Source: Sphingopyxis sp. KK2 (lineage in GTDB: Bacteria; Pseudomonadota; Alphaproteobacteria; Sphingomonadales; Sphingomonadaceae). Taken from it: 42,709 nucleotides of DNA. The stretch lies in assembly GCF_001990265.1 (NCBI RefSeq), contig NZ_LYVN01000021.1, positions 1 to 42,709 of the forward strand, read 5' to 3'. Below, piece after piece: positions 16,615 to 29,553 of the stretch. Position numbers and translations under genes: made by a program. Every line of letters begins with the position of its first letter. Position 1 is the stretch's first letter. The notes beneath the pieces are model-generated. The model had not been told where the DNA came from, searched no databases, and worked only from the letters and a program-made list of their open reading frames with translations.

Positions 16615-16743
16615 GCTGTCCGTGCTTCTACTTGGCCGTGCTTGAAGGGCAAGCGGTGACTTATGCACAGCAATCCCCAGATATGATATGCGGGGCCATA
16701 TCGCCGGTTGCACCGCTCCGGCCCTCGGCGCATGAGGATGGCT

Positions 16744-18255
16744 ATGCCTGAATTTGCCCTTGTTCCCGCCCCGGCCTCGCCGGGGGACGACCGCCAATTG
16801 CCGCGCAATATCGAGGCCGAGGCCGCCTTCCTCGGCGCGATCCTGATCGACAACCGAGTCGTCGAGGATCTGCCCGTCCAGCTCCACCCCGATCATTTCT
16901 TCGAACCGCTGCACGGCCGCATCTTCCAGCAGACGATGGCGCTGATCGAGCGCAACAGCATCGCGACCCCGGTCACGCTCAAGCCCTTTTTCGAGGCCGA
17001 CGAGGCGATGAAGGCGGTCGGCGGGCCCGGCTATCTTGCGCAGCTGACCGGCAGCGGTGCGGGCCTGATCGGCGCGCGCGATTTCGCCAAGCAGATTTTC
17101 GACCTCGCGCTCTTGCGCGAACTCGCGGGCGTCGGCCGCACGCTCGTCGACAATGCGCTCGACACGAGTGAGCGCGTCGACCCGCAGGCGCAGATCGAGG
17201 AAGCCGAAACCGCGCTCTACCGTGTCGCGGGCGGCGAGGCCGAGATGGGGACGGTCAAGAATTTCAGCCAGGCGAGCCTCGTCGCGCTGCAGGCGGCCGA
17301 ACGCGCGCTCAATTCGGGCGGCCATCTGTCGGGGATCACCACCGGCATCGGCAGTATGAACGCCAAGATCGGCGGCATGCACAATTCGGACTTGATGATC
17401 CTCGCGGGCCGTCCGGGTATGGGCAAGACCTCGCTTGCGACGAACATCGCCTATAACGCCGCCGAACGCTTCCGCCGCGACGAGGAGGACGGCATCCCGC
17501 CCGAGAAGAATATGGGCGCCAAGGTCGCCTTCTTCAGCCTCGAAATGTCGGCGGACCAGCTCGCGACGCGCGTGCTCGCCGAACAGTCGGGCGTCTCGGG
17601 CGAGGCGCTGCGCATGGGCAAGATCAGCAAGGAACAGTTCCAGCAGCTCTCCCGCGCCGCGCAGGCGCTCCAGACCTTGCCGTTGTTCATCGACGACACG
17701 CCGGGCCTGACGATCGCCGGTCTGCGCACCCGCGCGCGGCGGCTCCAGCGACGCCACGGCATCGGCTTCATCATCGTCGACTATCTCCAACTGCTGCAGG
17801 GGTCGTCGAAAAGCGGCGACAACCGCGTGCAGGAAATCTCCGAAATCTCACGCGGCCTGAAGACCTTGGCGAAGGAACTTCATGTTCCGGTGATGGCGCT
17901 CTCGCAGCTCAGCCGCCAGGTCGAAAGCCGCGAGGACAAGCGGCCGCAGCTCTCCGACCTTCGTGAATCGGGCTCGATCGAACAGGACGCCGACATGGTG
18001 CTCTTCGTGTTCCGCGAGGATTATTATGTCGCGGCGCGCGAGCCCAAGCGCCCGGTCGAGGGCGACGACGTCAAGATCCACGCCCAGCACGAGGAATGGG
18101 CCGCCGAAATGGAACGCGTCTTCGGCCTCGCCGAAGTCATCGTCGCCAAATCGCGTCACGGTTCGACCGGCAAGGTCCGCCTGCACTTCGAGGCGAAGAC
18201 GACCAAGTTCAGCGACCTCGCCGACGACAGCATGGCCTATGAGGATTATGAGTAG
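16744..18255 (+). CDS. dnaB: Replicative DNA helicase DnaB
   Basis: Protein of about 503 residues; the hexameric 5'-3' helicase of the replisome. The N-terminal domain begins RQLPRNIEAEAAFLGAILID. The RecA-like ATPase has Walker A GRPGMGKTS, FFSLEMS, FIIVDYLQLL (Walker B) and MALSQLSRQVE, and ends with HGSTGKVRLHFEAKTTKF. Three in-frame ATGs lie at 16732, 16738 and 16744; the last is chosen because GAGGA ends five bases before it, but 16732 is equally possible. It diverges from UPF0262. No intein or insertion is seen. Just after the stop codon lies the first copy of the palindromic repeat of the GIY-YIG cassette (18270). Confidence 0.97.
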   Translation: MPEFALVPAPASPGDDRQLPRNIEAEAAFLGAILIDNRVVEDLPVQLHPDHFFEPLHGRIFQQTMALIERNSIATPVTLKPFFEADEAMKAVGGPGYLAQLTGSGAGLIGARDFAKQIFDLALLRELAGVGRTLVDNALDTSERVDPQAQIEEAETALYRVAGGEAEMGTVKNFSQASLVALQAAERALNSGGHLSGITTGIGSMNAKIGGMHNSDLMILAGRPGMGKTSLATNIAYNAAERFRRDEEDGIPPEKNMGAKVAFFSLEMSADQLATRVLAEQSGVSGEALRMGKISKEQFQQLSRAAQALQTLPLFIDDTPGLTIAGLRTRARRLQRRHGIGFIIVDYLQLLQGSSKSGDNRVQEISEISRGLKTLAKELHVPVMALSQLSRQVESREDKRPQLSDLRESGSIEQDADMVLFVFREDYYVAAREPKRPVEGDDVKIHAQHEEWAAEMERVFGLAEVIVAKSRHGSTGKVRLHFEAKTTKFSDLADDSMAYEDYE

Positions 18256-18269
18256 CTCGATCACCAACA

Positions 18270-18299
18270 CGTCATCCCAGCGAAAGCTGGGATCGCTGG
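18270..18299 (+). repeat. Palindromic repeat family A, copy 1 (exact inverted match to copy 3)
   Basis: A 30 bp element beginning CGTCAT and holding the perfect hairpin ATCCCAGCGAAAGCTGGGAT (18274-18293: 8 bp stem, GAAA loop), then CGCTGG. It is an exact reverse complement of 18660-18689. It starts 14 bp after the dnaB stop codon. REP-like in size and in location between convergent genes; may also end dnaB transcripts. Confidence 0.9.
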
Positions 18300-18314
18300 C
18301 GGTTTAGCGGGACG

Positions 18315-18344
18315 ATAGCGGTCCCAGCTTTCGCTGGAACGACG
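18315..18344 (-). repeat. Palindromic repeat family A, copy 2 (degenerate, inverted)
   Basis: On the minus strand this copy reads CGTCGTTCC-AGCGAAAGCTGGG and matches copy 1 at 25 of 30 positions. It forms an inverted pair with copy 1 (REPIN-like, 15 bp between them) and lies one base from the stop codon of the GIY-YIG gene (stop at 18346-18348). Confidence 0.85.
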
Positions 18345-18345
18345 G

Positions 18346-18636
18346 TCAAAGAATATTGGCCGCCAGATCACTCCAATCTGGATTGCCTGCTTCGATCAAC
18401 TCGATTTTCCATTGCCGCTTCCAAGCCTTCATCGCTTTTTCGCGTGCGATGGCCTCTTCGATCGTTGGATATTCCTCGGCGAGCACAAGCGTGGTTAATC
18501 CATATTTTCGACAGAAAGCTGAGCCTTTGCCGGTCTTGTGCTGGAAAACGCGTGCCGAAATGTCCGCCGTGACTCCGATATAGAGCACGCCACCGCGCTT
18601 GTTCGTCATGATGTACACATGTCCGCCACGGCTCAT
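18346..18636 (-). CDS. GIY-YIG nuclease superfamily protein (cassette A)
   Basis: Protein of 96 residues, or 102 if the TTG at 18654 is used. Single GIY-YIG domain of the UPF0213/COG2827 type: VYIMTNKRGGVLYIGVT contains the GIY and YIG strands, followed by RVFQHKTGKG (catalytic Arg region), YGLTTLVLAEE and EEAIAREKAMKAWKRQWK (Glu and basic helix), ending NPDWSDLAANIL. The gene has no operon partner. It is boxed by palindromic repeats: copy 3 upstream (5 bp from the TTG, 23 bp from the ATG) and copy 2 one base after the stop codon. It sits between convergent dnaB and cysH. Likely a DNA nuclease or nicking enzyme tied to the repeats (inference); the single-domain family is otherwise uncharacterised. 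Confidence 0.88.
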   Translation of the reverse strand: MSRGGHVYIMTNKRGGVLYIGVTADISARVFQHKTGKGSAFCRKYGLTTLVLAEEYPTIEEAIAREKAMKAWKRQWKIELIEAGNPDWSDLAANIL

Positions 18637-18659
18637 GCCGACAGCGTAGCGCAAGGTTC

Positions 18660-18689
18660 CCAGCGATCCCAGCTTTCGCTGGGATGACG
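18660..18689 (-). repeat. Palindromic repeat family A, copy 3 (exact inverted match to copy 1)
   Basis: Exact 30 bp reverse complement of 18270-18299, with CGTCAT at its outer end on the minus strand. It lies six bases after the cysH stop codon and just upstream of the GIY-YIG start. With copy 1 it forms 30 bp terminal inverted repeats bounding a 420 bp unit. Confidence 0.9.
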
Positions 18690-18695
18690 GCTATC

Positions 18696-19499
18696 TCAGA
18701 ACGCCGGGTCGTTCGCCGGATTGTCGTCGATCGGCGTCACTTCGCTGTGGATGCCGCATTCGGTCTTGTCCCAGCCGCGCCAGCGGCCCGAGCGGGGGTC
18801 TTCGCCGGGTTTGACCTTCGAGGTGCAGGGCGAGCAGCCGATCGACGGATAGCCCTCGGCTTCGAGCGGGTGGCGCGGCAGGTCGTGCGCCTCGAAATAG
18901 GCGTCGAGGTCGGCGCGCGACCAGTTGGCGAGCGGGTTGAACTTCAGCCGGCCGGTGTTGCCGTCGAGTTCGAAGCGCGGCAGGCCGGTGCGCGTCGAGG
19001 CCTGGAAGCCCTTGCGCCCGGTGATCGAGGTGTCGAAATCGGCCAGCGCCTTTTCGAGCGGCTTGACCTTGCGGATCTCGCAGCAGCCGTCGGGGTCGTA
19101 GGACCAGCGCAACTCGGTCGCGTCCTTCGCCGCGAGGTCGTCGGGATCGGGGGTCAGGTTGACGATATTCAGCCCGAGCTTCGCCGCCAGTTCGTCGCGA
19201 TAGGCCAAGGTTTCGGGGAAATGCTTGCCGGTGTCGAGGAACAGCACCGGCATGTCGGGCGCGGCGCGCGTGACGAGGTGCAGCAGCACCGCGCTCTCGG
19301 CGCCGAAGCTCGACACGATCGCGGTCTCGCCGAGCAGCCCGGCGCCGATCACGCTCGCGACGACCTCGGCGGCGTCCTGGCCGCGGAACAGATTATTCAG
19401 CCGGATGACGTCGGTCGGCGCGAAGCGCGGCGCGACGTCGATGCGGTCGCGCGTGCGGTCTTCGCCGGTGTTGGGGGGAGAGACCCTCACCTCAGCCAT
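18696..19499 (-). CDS. cysH: Assimilatory adenylyl-sulfate (APS/PAPS) reductase
   Basis: Protein of 267 residues. It reduces APS or PAPS to sulfite in cytoplasmic sulfate assimilation. ATP-PP-like motifs SSFGAESAVLLHL and FLDTGKHFPETL bind the nucleotide. Cys139-Cys140 (GCCEIRK) and Cys222-x2-Cys225 (GCSPCTS) are the four cysteines of a [4Fe-4S] cluster, which points to the bacterial APS-reductase subtype. The catalytic Cys248 lies in ECGIH near the C-terminus. It is the last gene of the cobA-DUF2849-cysI-DUF934-cysH operon and overlaps the DUF934 gene by 8 bp. A family A palindrome follows six bases downstream and may aid termination. Confidence 0.95.
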   Translation of the reverse strand: MAEVRVSPPNTGEDRTRDRIDVAPRFAPTDVIRLNNLFRGQDAAEVVASVIGAGLLGETAIVSSFGAESAVLLHLVTRAAPDMPVLFLDTGKHFPETLAYRDELAAKLGLNIVNLTPDPDDLAAKDATELRWSYDPDGCCEIRKVKPLEKALADFDTSITGRKGFQASTRTGLPRFELDGNTGRLKFNPLANWSRADLDAYFEAHDLPRHPLEAEGYPSIGCSPCTSKVKPGEDPRSGRWRGWDKTECGIHSEVTPIDDNPANDPAF

Positions 19500-19938
19500 G
19501 CCTCAGCTTCCAGATCGGCACCGCGCCGTCGGCCGCGCCCTGATAATGCTCGGGCCAGCGGCTGAGCGCTGCCTCGACATCGGCGGGGTTCAGGTCCTTT
19601 TCGGGCGCGAATGTATCGAAGCCGCAGCGTTTCATATAGGCGATCTGGTCGACCAGCACGTCGCCCTGCGCGCGCAATTCGCCGACATAGCCCGCCTCGC
19701 GCAGGATGCGCGCCGACGAATAGCCGCGCCCGTCGCGGAACTTCGGGAAAGCAACCTCGATCAGCGCGAGCCGGTCGAGATGCGGGATCAGCGCGCGCGC
19801 ATCCTCGTCCGGCTCGAGCCGCACCGCGGTCGCGTTCGACTGCGACAGAAAGGCGTCGAGGGTGACGCAGGGTTCCTCGCCGTCCGTATGCCACCCTTCC
19901 GCTTGCGGAAGGGACTGATTATCGGCGCGCTCAACCAT
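19492..19938 (-). CDS. DUF934 protein of sulfite reductase operon
   Basis: Protein of 148 residues. The block IALIEVAFPKFRDGRGYSSA-like segment (here LIEVAFPKFRDGRGYSSARIL), GYVGELRAQGDVLVDQI and MKRCGFDTF is the signature of DUF934, which almost always lies beside cysI and cysH in proteobacteria. It is presumed to assist sulfite reduction, perhaps as an electron-transfer or assembly factor; the activity is not established. No signal peptide. The ATG at 19938 lies inside the end of cysI (8 bp overlap) and its stop overlaps cysH, so the three genes are translationally coupled. Confidence 0.9.
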   Translation of the reverse strand: MVERADNQSLPQAEGWHTDGEEPCVTLDAFLSQSNATAVRLEPDEDARALIPHLDRLALIEVAFPKFRDGRGYSSARILREAGYVGELRAQGDVLVDQIAYMKRCGFDTFAPEKDLNPADVEAALSRWPEHYQGAADGAVPIWKLRHG

Positions 19939-21562
19939 AGATCGCCTCCTTGAAGGGGGCCATGCCGATGCGGCGATAGGTGTCGACGAAGCGCTCGCCC
20001 TCGGCGCGTTCGGCGAGATATTTGTCGGTGACGCGCTCGATCGCATCGACGACGCCGTCCTCGTCGAAGCCGGGGCCGGTGATCGTGCCGAGCGACACAT
20101 CCTCCGCGCCCGATCCGCCGAGCAGAAGCTGGTAGTTTTCGGTGCCTTTGCGATCGACCCCCAGGATGCCGATGTGGCCGGCGTGGTGATGCCCGCAGGC
20201 GTTGATGCAGCCCGAAATCTTGAGCTTGAGCTCACCAAGTTCCTTCTGGCGGCCGAGATCGGAGAAGCGCGTCGCGATCTTCTGCGCGACCGGGATCGAG
20301 CGCGCATTGGCGAGGCTGCAATAATCGAGGCCGGGGCAGGCGATGATGTCGCTGATCAGGTCGAGGTTCGGCGTCGCGAGCCCTGCGGCGTCGAGCGCCT
20401 GCCAGATCGCGTAAAGGTCGGCCTTGCGGACATGCGGCAGCACGATGTTCTGCGCATGGGTGACGCGCAGCTCGTCATGGCCGTATTTCTCCGCAAGGTC
20501 GGCCATCAGGTCGATCTGCGCCGACGATGCGTCGCCGGGGATGCCGCCGACGGGCTTCAGGCTGATGTTGACGATCGCATGGCCGGGCAGCTTGTGCGCG
20601 GCGACATTCTGGTCGACCCAGACCGCGAAGTCGGGATCGCTGCGGTCGATTTCGTCGGGTGCCGATGCGTCGAGCGGCGGCGGCGCGAATTGTGCGGCGA
20701 TGCGGTCGAACTCGGCCTTCGGCGGGTCGATGCCCAGCGACTTCACATGGACGAACTCTTCCTCGACCTGGCGGCGATATTCGTCGGCGCCGAGTTCGTG
20801 GATCAGGATCTTGATCCGCGCCTTGTAGATATTGTCGCGGCGGCCATAGCGGTTGTAGACGCGCAGGCACGCCTCGGCATAGCTCAGCATGTCGTCGAGC
20901 GGCACGAAATCCTTGATCAGCGGCGCGATCATCGGGGTGCGGCCCATGCCGCCGCCGACGTAGAAGGCCGCGCCGTGCTGGCCGTCCTTCTCGACGATCT
21001 GGATGCCGATGTCGTGCAGGCGCATCGCGGCGCGATCCTCGTCTGCGGCGATGACGGCGATCTTGAACTTGCGCGGCAGATAGCTGAATTCGGGGTGGAA
21101 GCTCGACCATTGGCGGAGCAGTTCGGCCCACGGACGCGGATCGGTGATCTCGTCGGCGGCGGCGCCCGCCCACTGGTCCGAACTGATGTTGCGGATGCAA
21201 TTGCCGCTCGTCTGGATCGCATGCATCTCGACCGACGCGAGATCCTCGAGGATCGCGGGCGCATCCTCCAGCTTGATCCAGTTATACTGGATATTCTGGC
21301 GCGTGGTGAAATGGCCGTAATCGCGGTCGTACTTGCGCGCGATATGCGCGAGCATCCGCATCTGGCGGCTGTCGAGCGTGCCATAGGGCACCGCGACGCG
21401 CAGCATATAGGCGTGCAGCTGGAGATAGAGGCCGTTCATCAGCCGCAGCGGCTTGAACTGGTCCTCGGTGATTTCGCCGGCAAGGCGGCGCTTCACCTGG
21501 TCCGAAAATTCGGCGACGCGGGCGGCGACCATCGCATGGTCATATTCGTCATATTTATACAT
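19931..21562 (-). CDS. cysI: Sulfite reductase hemoprotein (nitrite/sulfite reductase family)
   Basis: Protein of 543 residues. It catalyses the six-electron reduction of sulfite to sulfide using siroheme and [4Fe-4S]. Visible: duplicated ferredoxin-like half domains (YGTLDSRQMRMLAHIARKY, HFTTRQNIQYNWIKLEDAP), CIRNISSD, and the siroheme/cluster ligands CPGLDYCSLA and KISGCINACGHHHAG. The nitrite reductase alternative is disfavoured because it lies within a sulfate assimilation operon (SUMT, DUF934, cysH). It follows DUF2849 with a 1 bp gap. No CysJ flavoprotein gene is present, so ferredoxin or another donor is implied. Confidence 0.94.
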   Translation of the reverse strand: MYKYDEYDHAMVAARVAEFSDQVKRRLAGEITEDQFKPLRLMNGLYLQLHAYMLRVAVPYGTLDSRQMRMLAHIARKYDRDYGHFTTRQNIQYNWIKLEDAPAILEDLASVEMHAIQTSGNCIRNISSDQWAGAAADEITDPRPWAELLRQWSSFHPEFSYLPRKFKIAVIAADEDRAAMRLHDIGIQIVEKDGQHGAAFYVGGGMGRTPMIAPLIKDFVPLDDMLSYAEACLRVYNRYGRRDNIYKARIKILIHELGADEYRRQVEEEFVHVKSLGIDPPKAEFDRIAAQFAPPPLDASAPDEIDRSDPDFAVWVDQNVAAHKLPGHAIVNISLKPVGGIPGDASSAQIDLMADLAEKYGHDELRVTHAQNIVLPHVRKADLYAIWQALDAAGLATPNLDLISDIIACPGLDYCSLANARSIPVAQKIATRFSDLGRQKELGELKLKISGCINACGHHHAGHIGILGVDRKGTENYQLLLGGSGAEDVSLGTITGPGFDEDGVVDAIERVTDKYLAERAEGERFVDTYRRIGMAPFKEAIYG

Positions 21563-21563
21563 G

Positions 21564-21860
21564 TCAGATCACCCAGTCGCCGGCCGCAGGATCGGCGGGT
21601 TTCAATGTCAGGTCGGGGCGCACGGTCGGACCCAATGCGCGGATGCGGTCCTTGATATGCGCGGGGCGCGGACCATCGGCGGTTGCTTCGCCCGCGATGA
21701 TGTAAGGCGCATTGACGCGGCGCGCAGCCTCCTCGACGGCGAGCACCGCCTCGCCATGCTCGCCGACGTCGGCGGCATCCTCGATGTGCAGCGACCAGTC
21801 GGCGCCGGTCCACCAGGTGACGAAACCTGTTTTCAGGTCGTTGCCCGTGAGCAATTTCAT
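21564..21860 (-). CDS. DUF2849 protein of sulfite reductase operon
   Basis: Protein of 98 residues: MKLLTGNDLKTGFVTWWTG, then VNAPYIIAGEAT, HIKDRIRALGPTVRPDL and the C-terminal D-W-V-I. This is the DUF2849 family, found almost only between SUMT and cysI genes of alphaproteobacteria. Cytoplasmic, with no Cys or metal motif. Its job is unknown; location suggests help in siroheme delivery or in sulfite reductase function. It overlaps the SUMT gene by 4 bp (ATGA) and ends one base before cysI starts. Confidence 0.88.
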   Translation of the reverse strand: MKLLTGNDLKTGFVTWWTGADWSLHIEDAADVGEHGEAVLAVEEAARRVNAPYIIAGEATADGPRPAHIKDRIRALGPTVRPDLTLKPADPAAGDWVI

Positions 21861-22654
21861 GTGAAGTCCCTTATATTTTCTATGTTTTGAGCGATGCCGG
21901 GGGCGCCGAGGCAGTCGAGCGCGTCGGCGCGCGCCGCGACCTTGCCGACGATGATCAGCGCTGGGCTGGCGACGCGTTCGCGCGCGACGAGGTCGCCGAG
22001 ATCGGTGAGCAGCGTGCGCAGCACGCGGGCATCCTTGGTGGTGCCGCGTTCGACCACCGCGACGGGCAGGTCGGGCGATACGCCGTCGGCGATCAGCTTG
22101 TCGGCGATGGCCGATGCGGTCGCGAGCCCCATGTAGATGACGAGCGTGCGGCCATGCCCCGCGAGCCCCGACCAGTCCTGGTCGGACAGATCCTTGCACT
22201 GCCCCGCGACGAAGCTCACCGCGCTCGCATCCTCGCGGTGCGTCAGCGGCAGCCCCGCCTGCGCGGCGCATCCGGCGGCGGCGGTGATGCCGGGGACGAC
22301 TTCGCAGGCAACGCCCGCTTCGCGCGCCGCGTCGAGTTCCTCGCCGCCGCGCCCGAAAATGAACGGATCGCCGCCCTTCAGCCGCACGACCTGCTTGCCG
22401 GCCTGCGTTTCGCGCACGAGCAGCTCGTTGATCGCCTCCTGCTTCATCGTGTGGCGGCTGCGCTGCTTGGCGACCGAGATGCGCTCGACATGCGCCGGGA
22501 TCAGCGCGAGCACGCCGTCGCCGACCAGCCCGTCATGCACGACCAGGTCGGCGCTCGTCAGCAATCGCGCCGCGCGCAGCGTCAGCAGGTCGGGATCGCC
22601 GGGGCCGGCGCCGACGAGCCACAGCTTGCCGGTGGAAGGGGGAGTCTTTTCCAT
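21857..22654 (-). CDS. cobA: Uroporphyrinogen-III C-methyltransferase (SUMT)
   Basis: Protein of 265 residues, single SUMT domain without the CysG dehydrogenase/ferrochelatase part. It makes precorrin-2 by two SAM-dependent methylations of uroporphyrinogen III, here for siroheme needed by CysI. Motifs: LVGAGPGDPDLLTLRAARLL, VRLKGGDPFIFGRGGEE, VVPGITAAAGCAAQAGLPLTHR and VIYMGLATA. It is the first gene of the sulfur operon; the promoter should lie in 22655-22747, where I saw no clear operator. Naming as cobA or cysG-type is a matter of convention. Confidence 0.94.
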   Translation of the reverse strand: MEKTPPSTGKLWLVGAGPGDPDLLTLRAARLLTSADLVVHDGLVGDGVLALIPAHVERISVAKQRSRHTMKQEAINELLVRETQAGKQVVRLKGGDPFIFGRGGEELDAAREAGVACEVVPGITAAAGCAAQAGLPLTHREDASAVSFVAGQCKDLSDQDWSGLAGHGRTLVIYMGLATASAIADKLIADGVSPDLPVAVVERGTTKDARVLRTLLTDLGDLVARERVASPALIIVGKVAARADALDCLGAPGIAQNIENIRDFT

Positions 22655-22747
22655 CCAGCGTAGATGGTCCGCGCCCGCCGATATGGCAAAGCAGGCTTTG
22701 TTGACGGGGGTGTAGGTAAAATTGACCCGCTTGCCGGCGGGAACTGT

Positions 22748-24193
22748 TCAGAGGAACTTCTTCGCCACCAGCTGCGATTCCTCGGGGTCGCGCAGGCCGA
22801 CGCCGATCGAGGCGCGCACGGCGTCGCTTTCGCTGCTCGCGACCGGATAGGCGCAATAATCGGCGGCGTAAAAGGCGCTCGGGCGATGGTTGCCCGACAG
22901 CCCGACCCCGCCGAAGGGCGCCGCCGACGAGGCGCCGTTGGTCGGGCGGTTCCAGTTTATGACCCCTGCGCGCGCATTCGCCCAGAACTGGTCGTAGAGC
23001 TGCGGCGACCCGCCGATCAGCGCCGCCGACAGGCCGAAGGCGGTGTTGTTCGCCTCGGCGATCGCCGCCTCGAAACTGTCGACGCGCACGATCTGGAGCA
23101 GGGGGCCGAACAATTCGATATCGGGACGTTCGGGCATGTCGGTGACGTCGATGATGCCGGGGGTCAGGAAGGGGCGATCCTTGACCGGGCGCGTCATGTG
23201 GCGGACGACCTTGCCGCCGTTCGACATCAGGATCAGGAAGCTTTCGGTCAGCCCGTCGGCGGCCTCGTTATCGATCACCGGCCCCATATAGGGCGGCGGC
23301 GTCGCAAAGGGCTCGTCGACGATCAGCCGGTTCGTCAGCTTGCGCACTTCCTCGACCAGCCGGTCGGCCATGCTGTCCTTGACGATCAGGCGACGCGCGT
23401 TGGTGCAGCGCTGCCCGGCGCTGAGGAAGGCCGACTGGACGACAAGGATCGCCGCGGTGTGGAGGTCGGGGGTGTCCCAGACGACGACGGGATTGTTGCC
23501 GCCCATTTCGAGCGCGAGGATCTTGTCGGGGCGGTTCGCGAACTGGCGGTTGAGCGCCAGCCCGGTGCGCGCCGATCCGGTGAACAGCAGCCCGTCGATG
23601 CCGGCATGGCCCGCGAGCGCCTTGCCCTCGTCGGGGCCGCCGATCACCAGCCGCAGCACCTCTTCGGGCACCCCGGCGCTGTGATAGAGGTCGACGAGCA
23701 TCGCGCCGGTCGCCGGGGTCTTTTCGGACGGCTTGAAAGCCACTGAATTGCCCGCGATCAGCGCCGGCACGATATGGCCGTTGGGCAGGTGCGCCGGGAA
23801 ATTATAGGGGCCAAGCACCGCGAGCAGCCCGTGCGGCTTGTGGCGCACCGCGTTGCGCAGCCCCATCGCGCCCTCGATGCGGCGGTTCGGGGTGCGCTCG
23901 GCATAGGCGTTGATCGAGATATTGACCTTGTTCGCGACCGATTCCACCTCGGTGCGCGCTTCCCACAAGGGCTTGCCGGTCTCGCGCGCGATCAGCGTCG
24001 CCAGCGTTTCGCTCTCGGCCTTCACCCGGTCGGCGAAGCGGCGCAGCGTTTCGGTGCGAAAGGTAAGGGGCTTCGCCGCCCATTCGGGCCAGGCGCGGCG
24101 GCCGATCTCGACCTCGCGGTCGATATCGCTGATCGCACCGCGCCAGATTTCGGCGCCGGTCGCGGGTTCGTGGGAAACCAGTTCGGCCGTCAT
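22748..24193 (-). CDS. astD: Succinylglutamate-semialdehyde dehydrogenase
   Basis: Protein of 481 residues of the NAD-dependent aldehyde dehydrogenase superfamily. AstD oxidises N-succinylglutamate 5-semialdehyde to N-succinylglutamate in the arginine succinyltransferase pathway. Features: VLGPYNFPAHLPNGHIVPALIAGNSVAFKPSE (cofactor binding), LEMGGNNPVVVWD with the catalytic Glu, and SAGQRCTNARRL with the catalytic Cys. The N-P-N and AHLPNGHI wording is AstD-like. Start ATG at 24193 has GGAGG eight bases upstream; a longer frame of 41 codons lacks homology. No other ast genes are in the window. It is divergent from the hydrolase gene. Confidence 0.92.
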   Translation of the reverse strand: MTAELVSHEPATGAEIWRGAISDIDREVEIGRRAWPEWAAKPLTFRTETLRRFADRVKAESETLATLIARETGKPLWEARTEVESVANKVNISINAYAERTPNRRIEGAMGLRNAVRHKPHGLLAVLGPYNFPAHLPNGHIVPALIAGNSVAFKPSEKTPATGAMLVDLYHSAGVPEEVLRLVIGGPDEGKALAGHAGIDGLLFTGSARTGLALNRQFANRPDKILALEMGGNNPVVVWDTPDLHTAAILVVQSAFLSAGQRCTNARRLIVKDSMADRLVEEVRKLTNRLIVDEPFATPPPYMGPVIDNEAADGLTESFLILMSNGGKVVRHMTRPVKDRPFLTPGIIDVTDMPERPDIELFGPLLQIVRVDSFEAAIAEANNTAFGLSAALIGGSPQLYDQFWANARAGVINWNRPTNGASSAAPFGGVGLSGNHRPSAFYAADYCAYPVASSESDAVRASIGVGLRDPEESQLVAKKFL

Positions 24194-24390
24194 GCGACCT
24201 CCGGGCCTGCCGCGCGCTTGCCGCGAGGGGAGGTGGGCTGGATGTCGGGGACCGGTCGCTGCATTGTCCCAGCCTCTTATCGGTGAAAGCCGGGAGCGGC
24301 AAGCCGAGGCAAGCATCGCTTGCGCGGCCGCGCCGGGTTGGCGATAGGGGATAGGAATCCCCGGGGGGCGGGCGAAGAAGGGAAGCCGTT

Positions 24391-25299
24391 ATTTCGGTCA
24401 GGCAGGACAAGGCATCGGACGGGCGCGGCGACTGGGCGGACCATTATTGGTGGTCGGCCGATAGCGTGCGGCTGCACGCGCGCATCTATGCCGGGCCCGA
24501 CGCGGCGGCGGGTGCGCCGCCGATCCTCTGCATGCCCGGCCTCGCGCGCAACGCGCGCGATTTCGAAGCGCTCGCACCGCATCTCGCGCAGGTCCGCCGC
24601 GTCATCGTCGTCGAGTTCCGCGGCCGCGGCGAAAGCGCTTTTGCCAAGGACCCGATGACCTATGTCCCGCTGACCTATGTGCAGGACGTCATCGCGCTGC
24701 TTGACGACCTTAAGGTCGATCGTTTCGCCACCGTCGGCACCTCGCTCGGCGGGCTGGTGTCGATGCTGCTCGCGGCGACGCAGCCGGGGCGGCTCGTCGG
24801 TGCGGTGCTGAACGATGTCGGCCCCGAACTCGAGGCGGCGGGGCTCGCGCGTATCCGCGACTATATCGGCGCCGGGGGCAGCCAGCCGACGTGGATCCAC
24901 GCCGCGCGCGCCTTTGGCGAACTCAACGCGGCGGTCTATCCTGGCTATCATATCCACGACTGGTTGCGGCTGACCAAGCGCACCCACCGGCTGACCGCCG
25001 AGGGGCGGATCGTCACCGATTACGACAAGCAGATCGCGGCGCCGCTGCGCGTGCCGAACGGCGGGGATGCCGGGGTCGACCTGTGGCCCGCCTATCGCGC
25101 GCTCGGCGGGGTGCCGCTGCTGGTGCTGCGCGGCGAACTGTCAGACATCCTCGGGCGCGATGCCGCCGCGAAAATGACCGCCGAACTGCCGCAGGCGCGG
25201 CTGGTCGAGGTCCCCGGCGTCGGCCATGCCCCGACGATGGACGAGCCCGAGGCGCTGGCGGCGATCGACGGCTGGGCAATGGAGCTTCCCGCCGCGTGA
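24391..25299 (+). CDS. Alpha/beta hydrolase, possible ATT start
   Basis: Protein of about 302 residues. Motifs: MPGLARNARDF (oxyanion region), VVEFRGRGES, nucleophile Ser in GTSLGG, acid Asp in GELSDIL, and His in GVGHAPTMDEP. No signal peptide; a cytoplasmic esterase/hydrolase of unknown substrate. Homologues of this type have a conserved N-terminus like D-H-Y-W-x-S-x-D-x-x-R-L-H, which is encoded here from 24439 and lies upstream of the first standard start (GTG at 24466). The frame is closed by TAG at 24352 and contains no ATG, GTG or TTG before 24466; ATT at 24391, preceded by AGAAGGGA, is the best candidate. The gene ends in a GTGA overlap with the glycosyltransferase gene. Confidence 0.85.
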   Translation: MSVRQDKASDGRGDWADHYWWSADSVRLHARIYAGPDAAAGAPPILCMPGLARNARDFEALAPHLAQVRRVIVVEFRGRGESAFAKDPMTYVPLTYVQDVIALLDDLKVDRFATVGTSLGGLVSMLLAATQPGRLVGAVLNDVGPELEAAGLARIRDYIGAGGSQPTWIHAARAFGELNAAVYPGYHIHDWLRLTKRTHRLTAEGRIVTDYDKQIAAPLRVPNGGDAGVDLWPAYRALGGVPLLVLRGELSDILGRDAAAKMTAELPQARLVEVPGVGHAPTMDEPEALAAIDGWAMELPAA

Positions 25300-26474
25300 A
25301 TGGCGACGATTCTGCACGGCCGTGGCCGATCCGCATCCTGCACCTCCATTCGAGTTTCGCGCTGGGCGGCAAGGAAGCGCGTGCGACGCGGCTGATGAAC
25401 CTGATGGGCGACCACGCGCGTCACACCATCCTGTCAGCGGTGCCCGATGCCCTGGGTGCGCGCGATGCCATCGCGCCGGGGATCGTCGTCGATTTCCCGA
25501 CCGATGCGCCGCCGCTTCACGGCAAGCCATCGCCGGGCCGCTATCGCGACCTGATGCGCTATATGCTGAATTTCGAACTGGTGCTGAGTTACAATTGGGG
25601 TGCGATGGACGGCGTGATGGCGCATCGGCTCTACTGGAATCGCTGGTGGTATAATATGCCGCCCAGCCTGATCCATCATGAGGATGGTTTCAACGAGGAT
25701 GAAAGCGTCCGGCGGAACTGGAAACGCAATCTGTTTCGCCGCGCCGGGTTGAAGCACGCGCTGGGCGTCGTGGTGCCCTCGGTCCTGCTGCAACGCATTG
25801 CGACCGAAGAGTGGCGGGCCGATCGTGTCCATCTGATCCGCAACGGCATCGACGTCGCAGCCTATGGTCATGGACCGACCGTGCCGATCCCGGGGTTCGA
25901 ACGCCGCGCTGGCGAAGTCGTGATCGGCACCGTCGCCGGGCTGCGCAAGGTCAAGGATCTGCCGCGTCTCGTCCGCGCGGTGGCGACCTTGCCATCGAAC
26001 GTCCGGCTGGTGATCGTCGGCGAGGGACCCGAACGCCAGGCGATTGCGGCCGAGGCGGCCGCCTGCGGCATGGCGGATCGGCTGGTCATGCCCGGCTTCA
26101 TGGCCGCGCCCGATCGTTGGGTCGGCCATTTCGACATCCTCGCGCTGTCGTCGCGGAGCGAGCAGGCGCCGATCGCCGTGATCGAGGCGATGGCGGCGGG
26201 GCTGCCGGTGGTCAGTCCCGATGTCGGCGACGTCGCGGCGATGGTGGCGGGCGAGAACCGGCGCTTCATCGCCCTCGACGAAGCCGCGTTCCGGGCGGGG
26301 CTGGCCGAACTGGCCGCAAATCCGGCGCTGCGCAGCGAAATCGGGACCGCCAACCGGTGCGTCGCCGCCGAACGCTTCGACGAATCAGCGATGGTCGCCG
26401 CCTATGAAAAGCTCTATGCTCGCGGCCTTGGTGGCTATGGCCCGTTCAGCGGTCGCTGGGTGGGTTCGGATTGA
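25296..26474 (+). CDS. GT4-family glycosyltransferase
   Basis: Protein of 392 residues. GT-B fold: N-terminal HLHSSFALGGKEARATRLMNLMG (acceptor-side domain) and C-terminal Rossmann domain VIGTVAGLRKVKDLPRLVRAVATL, LVIVGEGPER and the E-x7-E motif EQAPIAVIEAMAAGLPVV, as in GT4 retaining enzymes. It transfers a sugar from a nucleotide sugar to an unknown acceptor, probably a glycolipid or polysaccharide, at the cytoplasmic face. The start is GTG at 25296, overlapping the TGA of the hydrolase, with coupled translation. The TTGACA -35-like hexamer of the next gene overlaps its stop codon. Confidence 0.9.
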   Translation: MNGDDSARPWPIRILHLHSSFALGGKEARATRLMNLMGDHARHTILSAVPDALGARDAIAPGIVVDFPTDAPPLHGKPSPGRYRDLMRYMLNFELVLSYNWGAMDGVMAHRLYWNRWWYNMPPSLIHHEDGFNEDESVRRNWKRNLFRRAGLKHALGVVVPSVLLQRIATEEWRADRVHLIRNGIDVAAYGHGPTVPIPGFERRAGEVVIGTVAGLRKVKDLPRLVRAVATLPSNVRLVIVGEGPERQAIAAEAAACGMADRLVMPGFMAAPDRWVGHFDILALSSRSEQAPIAVIEAMAAGLPVVSPDVGDVAAMVAGENRRFIALDEAAFRAGLAELAANPALRSEIGTANRCVAAERFDESAMVAAYEKLYARGLGGYGPFSGRWVGSD

Positions 26475-26506
26475 CAAAAGGGACCGCCTTCCGCTTACGG
26501 AGGCGG
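26471..26506 (+). promoter_or_regulatory. Candidate promoter and leader hairpin of NMO-type gene
   Basis: TTGACA at 26471-26476 (a perfect -35 hexamer, overlapping the glycosyltransferase stop) is followed by CCGCCTTCCG-CTTA-CGGAGGCGG (26484-26506), a hairpin with one bulged T. The hairpin could end the upstream transcript or lie in the promoter spacer. No clear -10 hexamer was found, so this is tentative. Confidence 0.35.
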
Positions 26507-26558
26507 CAAATGGGGGCCATGGCGCACGAACGCCCGTGGTGCAGAGAAAGAGGTTCAA

Positions 26559-27962
26559 GTGTTCAAAGGTTTGAAGCCCATCCTTTATGGCGGGCGTGAA
26601 GTTTGGCCGCTGGTCGAGGGCGGCAAGGGCGTGTCGGCGACCAACCATATGTCGAGCGGCGCCTGGGCCGCCGCGGGCGGCATCGGCACCGTGTCGGCGG
26701 TCAACGCCGACAGCTATGACGCCGAGGGCAAGATCATCCCGCAGGTCTACAAGGCGCTCACCCGCAAGGAACGCCACGAAGAACTGATCCAATATGGCAT
26801 CGAAGGCGCGGTGGCGCAGGTCGAACGCGCCTATGAGGTGTCGGGCGGCAAGGGCGCGATCAACATCAACGTCTTGTGGGAAATGGGCGGCGCGCAGCAG
26901 ATCCTCGAAGGCGTGCTCGCGCGCACCCCGGGCATGATCGCGGGCGTCACCTGCGGTGCCGGCATGCCGTACAAGCTCAGCGAAATCGCCGAGCGCCACA
27001 ATGTCATGTATCTGCCGATCATCAGCTCGGCGCGCGCCTTCCGCGCGCTGTGGAAGCGCGCCTATCACAAGGTGCCGCACCTGCTCGGCGCCGTCGTCTA
27101 TGAAGATCCCTGGCTTGCCGGCGGCCACAACGGCCTGTCGAACGCCGAAGACCCGCTGGTGCCGCAGGACCCCTATCCGCGCGTCAAGGCGGTGCGCGAC
27201 ACGATGCGCGCCGAGGGCATTGCCGACAGCGTGCCGATCGTGATGGCGGGCGGCGTCTGGTATCTGCGCGACTGGGAGGATTGGATCGACAATCCCGAGC
27301 TCGGCCAGATCGTCTTCCAATATGGCACCCGCCCGCTGCTGACCGAGGAAAGCCCGATCCCGCAAGCGTGGAAAGATCGCCTCCGCACCCTCGACGACGG
27401 CGACGTGCTGCTCCACCGCTTCTCGCCGACCGGCTTCTACTCCAGCGCGGTGCGCACACCGTTCCTGCGCGACCTCGAAGCACGCTCGGAACGCCAGATT
27501 CCCTATTCGAAGCAGGAAGCGGGCGATCATATCGTCCAGCTCGACGTCGGGGTGAAGGGCAAGAATTTCTGGGTCACCCCGCACGACCGCGCCCGCGCGC
27601 GCGACTGGGCGGCCGAAGGCTATACCGAGGCGCTGAAGACCCCCGACAATACGGTCGTGTTCGTGACCCCCGAGGACAAGGCGATCATCCGCAAGGACCA
27701 GACCGACTGCATGGGCTGCCTGTCGCATTGTGGTTTTTCGTCGTGGAAGGACCATGACGACTACACCACCGGCTACCTCGCCGACCCGCGCAGCTTCTGC
27801 ATCCAGAAGACGCTGCAGGACATCGCGCACGGCGGCGACCCCGAACAGAATCTGATGTTCGCGGGCCACGCCGCGTTCAACTTCAAGACCGATCCCTTTT
27901 ATTCGAACAACTTCACCCCGACGGTGAAGCAGCTCGTCGATCGGATTTTGACGGGGGACTAA
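26559..27962 (+). CDS. Nitronate monooxygenase-type flavoprotein
   Basis: Protein of 467 residues, longer than the usual 320-350 of nitronate monooxygenases. The TIM-barrel core has NINVLWEMGG, GVTCGAGMPYKLSEIAERHNV (FMN site), LLGAVVYEDPWLAGGHNG and VPIVMAGGVWYLRDWEDW, like the NMO/2-nitropropane dioxygenase family. After residue about 370 comes an extra region with DCMGCLSHCGFSSW and SFCIQKTL, five cysteines that could hold a metal or Fe-S cluster. It may act on nitroalkanes, or on other acids as many relatives do. Start ATG at 26559 follows AAAGAGG. A family B palindrome begins seven bases after the stop codon. Confidence 0.85.
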   Translation: MFKGLKPILYGGREVWPLVEGGKGVSATNHMSSGAWAAAGGIGTVSAVNADSYDAEGKIIPQVYKALTRKERHEELIQYGIEGAVAQVERAYEVSGGKGAININVLWEMGGAQQILEGVLARTPGMIAGVTCGAGMPYKLSEIAERHNVMYLPIISSARAFRALWKRAYHKVPHLLGAVVYEDPWLAGGHNGLSNAEDPLVPQDPYPRVKAVRDTMRAEGIADSVPIVMAGGVWYLRDWEDWIDNPELGQIVFQYGTRPLLTEESPIPQAWKDRLRTLDDGDVLLHRFSPTGFYSSAVRTPFLRDLEARSERQIPYSKQEAGDHIVQLDVGVKGKNFWVTPHDRARARDWAAEGYTEALKTPDNTVVFVTPEDKAIIRKDQTDCMGCLSHCGFSSWKDHDDYTTGYLADPRSFCIQKTLQDIAHGGDPEQNLMFAGHAAFNFKTDPFYSNNFTPTVKQLVDRILTGD

Positions 27963-27968
27963 AACCCC

Positions 27969-28003
27969 CCGTCATTGCGAGCGAAGCGAAGCAATCCAGA
28001 GCG
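27969..28003 (+). repeat. Palindromic repeat family B, copy 1 (exact inverted match to copy 2)
   Basis: 35 bp element starting CCGTCATTGCGAGCGAAGCG and ending CAATCCAGAGCG, typical of repeats widespread in alphaproteobacteria. Its exact reverse complement is 28310-28344. It ends three bases before the ATG of the GIY-YIG gene, so it also forms that gene's leader. An inner TTGC/GCAA pairing can form an imperfect hairpin. Confidence 0.92.
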
Positions 28004-28006
28004 GCC

Positions 28007-28309
28007 ATGCGCGAACGCCTGCCAGCGGTTTATATGATGGCGAACCGGCGCAATGGCACGGTTTATACTGGCGTGACCTCGCAATTGGTACGCCGCGTCT
28101 GGCAGCACCGCGAGGGGATAGCGGGGTTTTCGCAGCGCTATGATTGCAAGCTGCTGGTTTGGTTCGAGATGCATGGGGATATGGTCGCCGCGATCACGCG
28201 CGAGAAGCAGATCAAAGGTGGAAGCAGGGCAAAGAAGCTGGCTCTGATCGAGGCGGAGAACCCGCTCTGGCGCGACCTGTGGCCGACGATCCTCGACGGC
28301 AGCGAGTAA
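28007..28309 (+). CDS. GIY-YIG nuclease superfamily protein (cassette B)
   Basis: Protein of 100 residues, single GIY-YIG domain: VYMMANRRNGTVYTGVT (GIY and YIG strands, here YTG), RRVWQHREG, YDCKLLVWFEM, ITREKQIKGGSRAKKLALIE and NPLWRDLWPTIL. It is clearly diverged from the cassette A protein while sharing the layout. The gene fills the space between two inverted 35 bp repeats almost completely: three bases separate copy 1 from the ATG, and copy 2 begins directly after the TAA. There is no room for a normal ribosome site outside the repeat. It lies between the convergent NMO-type and hydroxyacid dehydrogenase genes. Likely a nuclease acting with the repeats (inference). Confidence 0.9.
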   Translation: MRERLPAVYMMANRRNGTVYTGVTSQLVRRVWQHREGIAGFSQRYDCKLLVWFEMHGDMVAAITREKQIKGGSRAKKLALIEAENPLWRDLWPTILDGSE

Positions 28310-28344
28310 CGCTCTGGATTGCTTCGCTTCGCTCGCAATGACGG
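28310..28344 (-). repeat. Palindromic repeat family B, copy 2 (exact inverted match to copy 1)
   Basis: Exact 35 bp reverse complement of 27969-28003, beginning in the base after the GIY-YIG stop codon. Together the two form a 376 bp unit with 35 bp terminal inverted repeats. It also pairs with copy 3 as an inverted doublet. Confidence 0.92.
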
Positions 28345-28359
28345 AGTTTTATTGCGCTT

Positions 28360-28399
28360 CGTCATTGCGAGGAGCGAAGCGACGAAGCAATCCAGAGCG
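28360..28399 (+). repeat. Palindromic repeat family B, copy 3 (variant)
   Basis: A 40 bp variant in the direct orientation: starts CGTCATTGCGAG, has a small insertion (GGAGCGAAGCGACGAAGC in place of the shorter core) and ends CAATCCAGAGCG. It lies 15 bp from copy 2 in inverted orientation, REPIN-like. It lies 31 bp from the 3' end of the hydroxyacid dehydrogenase gene. Confidence 0.88.
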
Positions 28400-28429
28400 A
28401 GTTAGAACTGCCGCCCCGGTGATCTCCGA

Positions 28430-29428
28430 TCAAACCCACCCCTCCAGCACCTGGTCGGGCGGGCGATGCCCGTCGCTCCATGCGCGGATATTGGCGATGA
28501 CCTTCTCGCCCGACGCCTCGCGGCCCTCGATCGTCGCCGAGCCGAGGTGCGGCAGCAGCACGACATTGTCGAGCGCGAGCAGTTCGGGGTCGACAGCGGG
28601 TTCGTGGGTGTAGACGTCAAGGCCCGCGCCCGCGATGCGCCCGGCCTTGAGCGCCGCGACCAGCGCGCCTTCGTCGACGATCTCGCCGCGCGCGGTGTTG
28701 ATCAGATAAGCGGTGGGCTTCATCGACGCGATGCGCGCCGCATGGATCATCTCGTGCGTCTCGCTCGTATGCGGGCAATGGATCGTGACGACGTCGCTGA
28801 TCCGCAGCAGCGTGTCGACGCTCGCATGATAGCTTGCGCCCAATTCCTCCTCGATCGCTTCGGGCAGGCGGCGGCGGTTGTGATAATGGATCGACAGGCC
28901 GAAGGCGCGCGCGCGGCGTGCGACGGCGAGGCCGATGCGTCCCATGCCGATGATGCCGAGCAATTTGCCGCCGACGCGGTGGCCGAGCATCGCGCTCGGC
29001 GCCCAGCCCTGCCATTGGCCCGAACGCATCAATTTCTCGCCCTCGGCGAGCCGGCGCGGGACCGAGAGGATCAGCGCCATCGTCATGTCGGCGGTATCTT
29101 CGGTGAACACGCCCGGCGTGTTCGACACCATGATGCCCTTGGCGCGCGCGGCGGCGAGGTCGATATGGTCGACCCCGGCGCCGAAATTGGCGATCAGCTT
29201 CAGCCGCTCGCCCGCCGCGGCGATCACTTCGGCGTCGATCTCGTCGGTCACCGTCGGCACAAAGACGTCGCAATCGGCGACCGCGGCCTTCAACTCGTCC
29301 TTGGTAAAGGCATGATCCTGCGCCGACAGCGCGACGTCGAACAATTCGGCCATGCGCCCCTCGACATGCGGCATCAACTGGCGGGTGACGATGACGCGCG
29401 GGCGGCGGGGACGGGATGAATCGGGCAT
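28430..29428 (-). CDS. D-2-hydroxyacid dehydrogenase (glyoxylate/hydroxypyruvate reductase-like)
   Basis: Protein of 332 residues. NAD(P)-dependent reduction of 2-oxoacids such as glyoxylate or hydroxypyruvate. Motifs: NFGAGVDHIDL, LLGIIGMGRIGLAVARRARAFG (Rossmann), NTARGEIVDEGALVAAL with the catalytic Arg, DVYTHEP with the catalytic Glu, and LLPHLGSAT with the catalytic His. Start ATG at 29428 gives the usual N-terminus RVIVTRQLMP; a 24-codon upstream extension is not supported. Cytoplasmic. It faces the GIY-YIG cassette at its 3' end and is divergent from the SH3 gene. Exact substrate cannot be assigned. Confidence 0.9.
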   Translation of the reverse strand: MPDSSRPRRPRVIVTRQLMPHVEGRMAELFDVALSAQDHAFTKDELKAAVADCDVFVPTVTDEIDAEVIAAAGERLKLIANFGAGVDHIDLAAARAKGIMVSNTPGVFTEDTADMTMALILSVPRRLAEGEKLMRSGQWQGWAPSAMLGHRVGGKLLGIIGMGRIGLAVARRARAFGLSIHYHNRRRLPEAIEEELGASYHASVDTLLRISDVVTIHCPHTSETHEMIHAARIASMKPTAYLINTARGEIVDEGALVAALKAGRIAGAGLDVYTHEPAVDPELLALDNVVLLPHLGSATIEGREASGEKVIANIRAWSDGHRPPDQVLEGWV

Positions 29429-29553
29429 GGCGCCGATAGAGCGTGCGGCGCGGGAACGGTCAAGGGGCGCGCGCGTCTTGCCCTTGTGGAAAAGCCGCAT
29501 CGCGCGGGACGCCGACGGTTGAAAAAAGGCGCGATTTGCAACAAGGGTTGCCG

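Follow-up and report, generated by a model that had tools for sequence, protein, structure and literature searches.

Repetitive extragenic palindromes (REPs) tagged with CGTC were described as a superfamily by Di Nocera, De Gregorio and Rocco in 2013 (PMC3733652). In the accessible part of that paper, CGTC-REPs are given a CGTC head, a stem of 8-9 bp starting with AT, a loop of 4-5 nt and a short tail which is mostly CCA; they are mainly alphaproteobacterial, lie between convergent or unidirectional genes and, where they are paired, mostly adopt a single orientation (HH), and the Neisseria dRS3 and Rickettsia RPE repeats are counted among them. The same part of the text states that these repeats "apparently lack a dedicated transposase", names no nuclease and contains no word beginning with GIY. 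Here we describe two cassettes, A and B, in a stretch of DNA of 42,709 nucleotides from Sphingopyxis sp. KK2 (contig NZ_LYVN01000021.1, positions 1 to 42,709; "the window" denotes this whole stretch), in each of which a gene for a small GIY-YIG nuclease lies between inverted copies of its own CGTC-headed repeat. We consider it probable that the cassettes are small REP-type elements whose nuclease recognises its own CGTC hairpin, a reading in which pairing, structure and mobility carry most of our confidence. The initial annotation of the window had proposed such a REP-like system and had left its novelty to a check of the literature, in which the repeats were found to be already published as CGTC-REPs (PMC3733652, as far as its accessible part goes).

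The likeness to CGTC-REPs consists in an unpaired CGTC at one end beside the stem, which is present in all exact copies of repeats A and B. The difference is that the repeats, in the part of the 2013 description available, lack an enzyme partner, whereas the repeat families described here have a cognate GIY-YIG gene. In layout, the cassettes also resemble the units formed by REP-associated tyrosine transposases (RAYTs), which the available parts of PMC8266576 and PMC8049555 describe as single-copy, vertically inherited HUH tyrosine transposases with a GTAG head. As in the RAYT, REPtron and REPIN systems known from these parts, a gene is flanked by head-tagged hairpins, inverted doublets are dispersed, and the class of repeat is matched to the protein; in contrast to them, the genes encode GIY-YIG nucleases (PF01541), the head is CGTC, there are often several per genome, and the sites vary between relatives. 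The parallel to REP/RAYT units that had been drawn for the window thus extends to layout and specificity but not to membership of the family, the protein being PF01541 and not HUH and the head CGTC and not GTAG. No paper pairing GIY-YIG proteins with REPs was found, which is weak evidence of absence given the limited coverage of the literature; PMC10928387, considered as a possible one, is unrelated in the part available.

A homologue from Neisseria gonorrhoeae shows 46% identity to protein A over 90 residues, and CGTC-1-type repeats are located on both sides of its gene. Chenal, Veyrier and colleagues are said to have described, in Nat Commun in 2025, a family of small GIY-YIG enzymes named Ssn, whose substrate is single-stranded DNA and whose target is a sequence repeated in Neisseria. 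The interaction of Ssn with this repeat reportedly modulates natural transformation in Neisseria, and thousands of homologues with target sequences of their own are reported to exist. Going by this account, the Ssn family and the proteins studied here have in common a small GIY-YIG protein, conserved active-site residues and a link to a multi-copy repeat. The N. gonorrhoeae locus fits the account and may correspond to the published ssn gene. If the Ssn paper already covers clade-specific repeats, what is new here is limited to how the element is built, to its deletion derivatives and to the connection with CGTC-REPs.

Element A (18270..18689, minus strand) is a cassette of 420 bp with a CGTC head at both outer ends. 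Its nuclease gene (18346..18654, minus strand) encodes a GIY-YIG protein of 102 residues and is listed with a TTG start, an ATG at 18636 being possible. Repeat A, CGTCATCCCAGCGAAAGCTGGGAT, is present in the window in two exact copies and one copy with three mismatches, and none was found in 100 shuffled versions of the window. The exact copies form the outer ends, at 18270..18293 (plus strand), on the 3' side of the gene, where position 18270 is the end of the element, and at 18666..18689 (minus strand), on its 5' side, while the degenerate copy (18321..18344, minus strand) is internal and lies 1 nt from the stop codon. Element B (27970..28343, plus strand; 374 bp), likewise with CGTC at both outer ends, contains a nuclease gene for 100 residues (28007..28309, plus strand), also of the GIY-YIG type, between exact copies of repeat B at 27970..27999 (plus strand) and 28314..28343 (minus strand), the latter 4 nt from the stop codon. 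The element ends at 28343, and a longer variant of the repeat lies beyond it (28360..28395, plus strand) with its head toward the element. For the 12-base head of repeat B, with at most one mismatch, the window contains three matches against 0.52 expected, and one of 100 shuffles also reached three. The heads of the outer copies point away from the nuclease gene in both elements. Repeat A can be drawn as a hairpin with an 8-bp stem, the loop GAAA and the tail CGC; repeat B, with a 5-bp outer stem containing an internal mismatch and the tail CCA, is a poorer fit to the CGTC-REP shape.

Much of what the initial annotation had said of this layout was borne out, namely the two cassettes with each nuclease gene between its own inverted repeats, the outer end CGTCAT on the exact copies, the core CGAA(A)GC in both repeats and a stop codon adjoining a repeat. 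Its count of three copies with one degenerate is true of A, where the degenerate copy is internal, but not of B, where the third copy is the longer variant; and although third copies exist on the 3' side in both cassettes, the orientation of the doublet differs between A and B.

Scanning the flanks of UPF0213-type genes across the host's order, which had been put forward as a check of the pairing, showed how general it is. Of 196 genomes of the order, 123 contain a match to protein A and 114 one to protein B (E up to 0.001), with up to eight per genome. From the best-scoring genes among the matches listed, 160 distinct genes were taken, of which 158 from 88 genomes, including the two of the window, have full flanks of 250 bp and two were left out because of short flanks. 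An exact inverted repeat of at least 14 nt joins both flanks in 100 of the 158 genes, compared with 6 of 1037 pairs of control windows taken at these loci, and one of at least 25 nt does so in 42 of 158 against 0 of 1037. Using a stricter detector of CGTC hairpins, at least one was found nearby in 109 of the 158 genes and in 21 of 637 control pairs. In a named set, consisting of the best 80 of at least 588 loci (three of the 80 also belonging to the order set), 78 loci could be tested, two having short flanks, and 38 of them gave a repeat of at least 14 nt as opposed to 2 of 1075 controls; for those with titles outside Proteobacteria the numbers were 7 of 22 and 0 of 310. In addition, 28 viral contigs (L334-L361) carry relatives of the nuclease, and 19 of 27 passed the 14-nt test, one locus being left out for short flanks, against 1 of 328 controls. 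Phages might therefore ferry cassettes from host to host. Among 131 distinct CGTC-type repeats, 70 have a CCA tail, and four pair types were seen at stem position 6, a result that is favoured by the detector since it requires pairing. Over all loci, a sample biased to nuclease loci, 91 repeat pairs are head-outward, 51 inward and 16 direct.

The pairing is also specific. Where a head-outward repeat is found on both flanks, the two are alike in 63 of 65 genes, compared with 406 of 1268 mismatched flank pairs. The comparison of protein and repeat trees that the initial annotation had suggested gave the expected congruence: repeat similarity follows protein identity with a Mantel r of 0.59 (62 genes; 0 of 999 permutations), and with an r of 0.57 for pairs from different genera. 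Of such different-genus pairs, 91% of 35 share their repeat when the proteins are at least 70% identical, and 3% of 529 do so below 45%. When the loop class was placed on the protein tree, 8 changes were needed, whereas 200 shuffles required 22 on average and never fewer than 15. At identity thresholds chosen out of five computed, and with the reference gene included in each case, the B repeat is found in 12 of 12 genes of the B clade (at least 57% identity to protein B) and 2 of 145 others, and the A repeat in 17 of 21 genes of the A clade (57%) and 7 of 136 others; for a third clade, C, the C repeat is found in 8 of 8 genes at 62%, with 0 of 149 others, but in 8 of 17 at 57%. The clades thus mostly carry their own repeat family. 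Furthermore, in 40 of 52 comparisons the repeat is more like that of the nearest protein from another genus than that of a paralogue encoded by the same genome, and when each gene was counted once against its best paralogue, 15 went in this direction, so that repeat sharing is not chiefly due to the host genome. In both the flank and the congruence tests, and with exceptions, the pairing of each GIY-YIG clade with its own CGTC-headed repeat is real and general, as had been proposed from the window alone.

The boundaries of the cassettes are shared. Between their outer CGTC ends, eight C cassettes found in seven genomes and the three A-like ones of a single genome (G110) are 76-94% identical, and outside these ends 54-70%, the baseline of the aligner for unrelated 200-mers being a median of 62% with a 95% point of 70%. 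All three A-like copies in G110 are bounded by CGTC...GACG in the same way as element A. One A-like cassette in this genome (L112) has a truncated nuclease, of which 35 residues were found, between its repeat ends.

The sites, by contrast, differ between relatives. Both elements lie between convergent genes, as had been noted. Element A is located between dnaB (16708..18255, plus strand; replicative DNA helicase, NF006606, E 1.9e-209) and cysH (18696..19499, minus strand; phosphoadenylyl-sulfate reductase, NF002537, E 1.2e-84), and element B between an open reading frame of 467 residues (26559..27962, plus strand), without an NCBIfam match at E up to 1e-10, and a D-2-hydroxyacid-dehydrogenase-like gene (28430..29500, minus strand; NF009714, E 1.7e-97, under its curated cut-off). 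Only the host has the A cassette between dnaB and cysH. Of seven congeners, five could be aligned at this junction and all five lack it; a spacer of 41 bp is seen in G035 and G097, and the remaining three carry hairpin doublets from other families. The B site holds a related B cassette in G035, a 48-bp spacer containing a single CGTC-headed hairpin in another congener, other repeat doublets in two more and an insert of 2 kb in one. As a side observation, both gene junctions (18256-18695 and 27963-28429 of the window) hold different repeat families in different congeners, and in G080 the A site is occupied by a B-type doublet and the B site by one of A type.

Outside the host's genus, Azospirillum lipoferum 4B has a cassette between sufB and sufC (L385:1507-1800), whereas G228, with flanks 97% and 95% identical to those of A. 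lipoferum, has a spacer of 90 bp and no cassette at this place; spacers of 86 and 68 bp without a cassette are found in G218 and G215. A. brasilense (G196) has a cassette at the same sufB-sufC place (L442) with a partly different repeat set. For comparison with homing endonucleases, it may be added that the repeats are intact at both cassette ends and that the spacers of the empty sites differ.

Doublets without a gene were found as well. Genome G121 has two C doublets, each on a contig of its own (L365 and L366), that encode about 17-26 residues resembling the C-terminal part of the nuclease, and with this remnant inside them they look like internal-deletion derivatives of a cassette. Another genome (G130) contains two copies of one doublet (L362, L363) with similar left flanks and an inverted interior, as if it had been flipped between the inverted ends.

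Taken as a mechanism, the element would be a unit of about 370-420 bp, with one gene for a GIY-YIG protein of about 100 residues and, on either side of it, a copy of its own CGTC repeat with the head outward. The nuclease would recognise its hairpin repeat where DNA is single-stranded, as on the lagging strand, in repair gaps or in incoming DNA, and would nick it at the CGTC head or close by. When the break is repaired, doublets, as non-autonomous units, and whole cassettes, as autonomous ones, may be copied into new positions between genes. Because GIY-YIG enzymes cut DNA by hydrolysis and do not stay covalently bound to it, spreading would be of the cut-and-repair kind and not strand transfer of the RAYT or IS200 type. 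That the nuclease drives the spreading of the repeats is, taken alone, a suggestion to which we give somewhat less than even credence.

Several results weigh against the view of the cassettes as mobile elements whose nuclease acts on its own repeat. In the order set, 58 of 158 genes have no flank repeat of 14 nt, and the comparisons with paralogues went in the wrong direction in 11 of 52 cases, with one tie, and for 6 of 21 genes in the once-per-gene count. At the orthologous junctions neither a target-site duplication nor an exact insertion point could be read, the spacers of the empty sites being different, and relatives without the cassette may have lost it or may never have had it. In a search of 20 repeat loci for gene remnants, two were found inside an outward doublet (L365 and L366) and one beside a single repeat (L379), the other loci of the 20 giving no clear match to a nuclease gene. 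In favour of the view, all seven genomes with a sampled C nuclease have C repeats (0-1 mismatch) beyond the pair of the cassette, and one (G150) of the other 189 has them, yet this count is partly built in, as the cassettes themselves carry the repeat; in G145 the extra C repeat adjoins the cassette, and since C-nuclease genomes were taken as those with a sampled C-clade gene, unsampled genes might add more. Finally, repeat B is present in all 13 genomes with a close B nuclease (the 13 best-scoring, at 117 bits or more, the next having 108), ten of them with at least ten copies, but 37 of the 183 genomes that lack such a nuclease have it too, 12 of them in at least ten copies and with a maximum of 77. 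A resident cognate nuclease is thus unnecessary for the persistence of the repeats, which can outlive it or do without it, counter to a simple rule of maintenance. The REP-like system proposed in the initial annotation is retained as regards the pairing of clade and repeat, with the GIY-YIG protein as a candidate maintenance enzyme, B repeats being abundant in some genomes without a close B nuclease. The largest of these orphan B-type populations comprise 77, 61 and 59 copies (G080, G166 and G173).

B repeats in genomes without a close B nuclease would also be expected if the nuclease acted on the repeats in the control of DNA uptake or recombination, or in a regulation useful to the host, and the repeats were kept by selection or gene conversion without being moved by the nuclease. 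The Neisseria relative surrounded by CGTC-1-type repeats points in the same direction, as does the reported modulation of transformation by Ssn and its repeat. So does the strong conservation of Y14, Y25, R35, H39, E72 and N91, which we take to be the GIY-YIG active site and which are retained in 152-157 of 157 proteins, as under a selected function; this conservation counts for the preferred reading as well. Such a role does not account, however, for cassettes that occupy different sites, occur in several copies in one genome (G110, G130) and are polymorphic between relatives, nor for the two remnant-bearing doublets on separate contigs of G121, and we regard it as unlikely, though deserving of serious consideration. 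It is compatible with mobility, and both may hold.

If CGTC-REPs did no more than offer favoured landing sites, with the nuclease cassette as a passenger that had come to lie between them, one junction might well carry different repeat families in different congeners, as is observed. The repeat, however, tracks the clade of the protein more than the host genome, and the likeness between copies stops at the outer CGTC. Moreover, strict repeats in the gene flanks have their heads outward more often than inward (88 versus 31 on the 5' side and 74 versus 29 on the 3' side). Mere landing sites are disfavoured by the paralogue comparisons and the clade-by-repeat tables, and we regard them as a very improbable explanation.

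Transcription terminators, or hairpins stabilising mRNA, inherited together with a small gene would fit the position of the repeats between convergent genes, as well as the 41-bp spacer in G035 and G097, which looks terminator-like by eye and occupies the same site. They would predict neither a clade-specific sequence, nor the CGTC head, nor the shared boundaries of the elements, and we think it most unlikely that they explain the cassettes, while termination may be a side role of the repeats.

That CGTC-REPs are moved in trans by a RAYT or another tyrosine transposase of the IS200/IS605 type, a possibility raised in the accessible part of PMC3733652 and in line with the similar layout of RAYT REPs, is hardly credible and is rejected for the host genome, where no match to Y1_Tnp (PF01797, the domain of the RAYT superfamily) was found beside at least 52 repeat matches, so that a hidden partner there is not a RAYT; in the order the domain was detected in 38 of 196 genomes.

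The preferred reading, in which the cassettes are elements with a nuclease for their own hairpin, names a candidate enzyme for a repeat superfamily described in 2013 as being without a dedicated transposase. It also offers many natural pairs of enzyme and repeat with a specificity that can be read from sequence, and the origin of the repeats becomes testable. If the reported Ssn work stands, that nuclease family would be tied to CGTC-REPs far beyond Neisseria and to the lifestyle of a mobile element. Going further, and tentatively, CGTC-REPs and GIY-YIG genes could make up a REP world of their own, a second one with no relation to RAYTs, with cassettes that at about 400 bp would rank with the smallest autonomous mobile elements, a single-strand nuclease recognising its own hairpin ends, doublets as deletion derivatives, spread by cut-and-repair and many distinct pairs evolving side by side, often several per genome.

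Proteins A and B are 43% identical over 90 residues and match PF01541 with E values of 1e-14 and 8.7e-12, respectively. An AlphaFold model of protein A has a mean predicted local distance difference test score (pLDDT) of 92.5, and its nearest solved fold is the UPF0213 protein BH0048 (1zg2, E 3.8e-4), with Slx1 as a weaker match (7cq3, E 0.011). A profile search found two solved relatives, again BH0048 (1zg2, E 1.6e-10) and EF2693 (1ywl, E 1.3e-6), and the similarity to the UPF0213-type GIY-YIG proteins thus extends to both sequence and fold. PADLOC gave no match to a known defence system, and NCBIfam gave no specific identity, with weak partial matches only for protein A and none for protein B.

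The host genome (4.34 Mb in 320 contigs, completeness 99.98) contains three PF01541 matches, two of which are proteins A and B. The pattern of repeat A, allowing up to three mismatches, has 15 matches in this genome and the full 30-base pattern of repeat B has 37, the reversed pattern used as a control giving none in either case. Variants of repeat A in the host genome swap the sequence of the stem but stay paired (CAGC..GCTG, CGGC..GCCG and CCGC..GCGG), as a hairpin would predict. Several of the repeat B copies in this genome form inverted pairs 46-48 bp apart with their heads outward.

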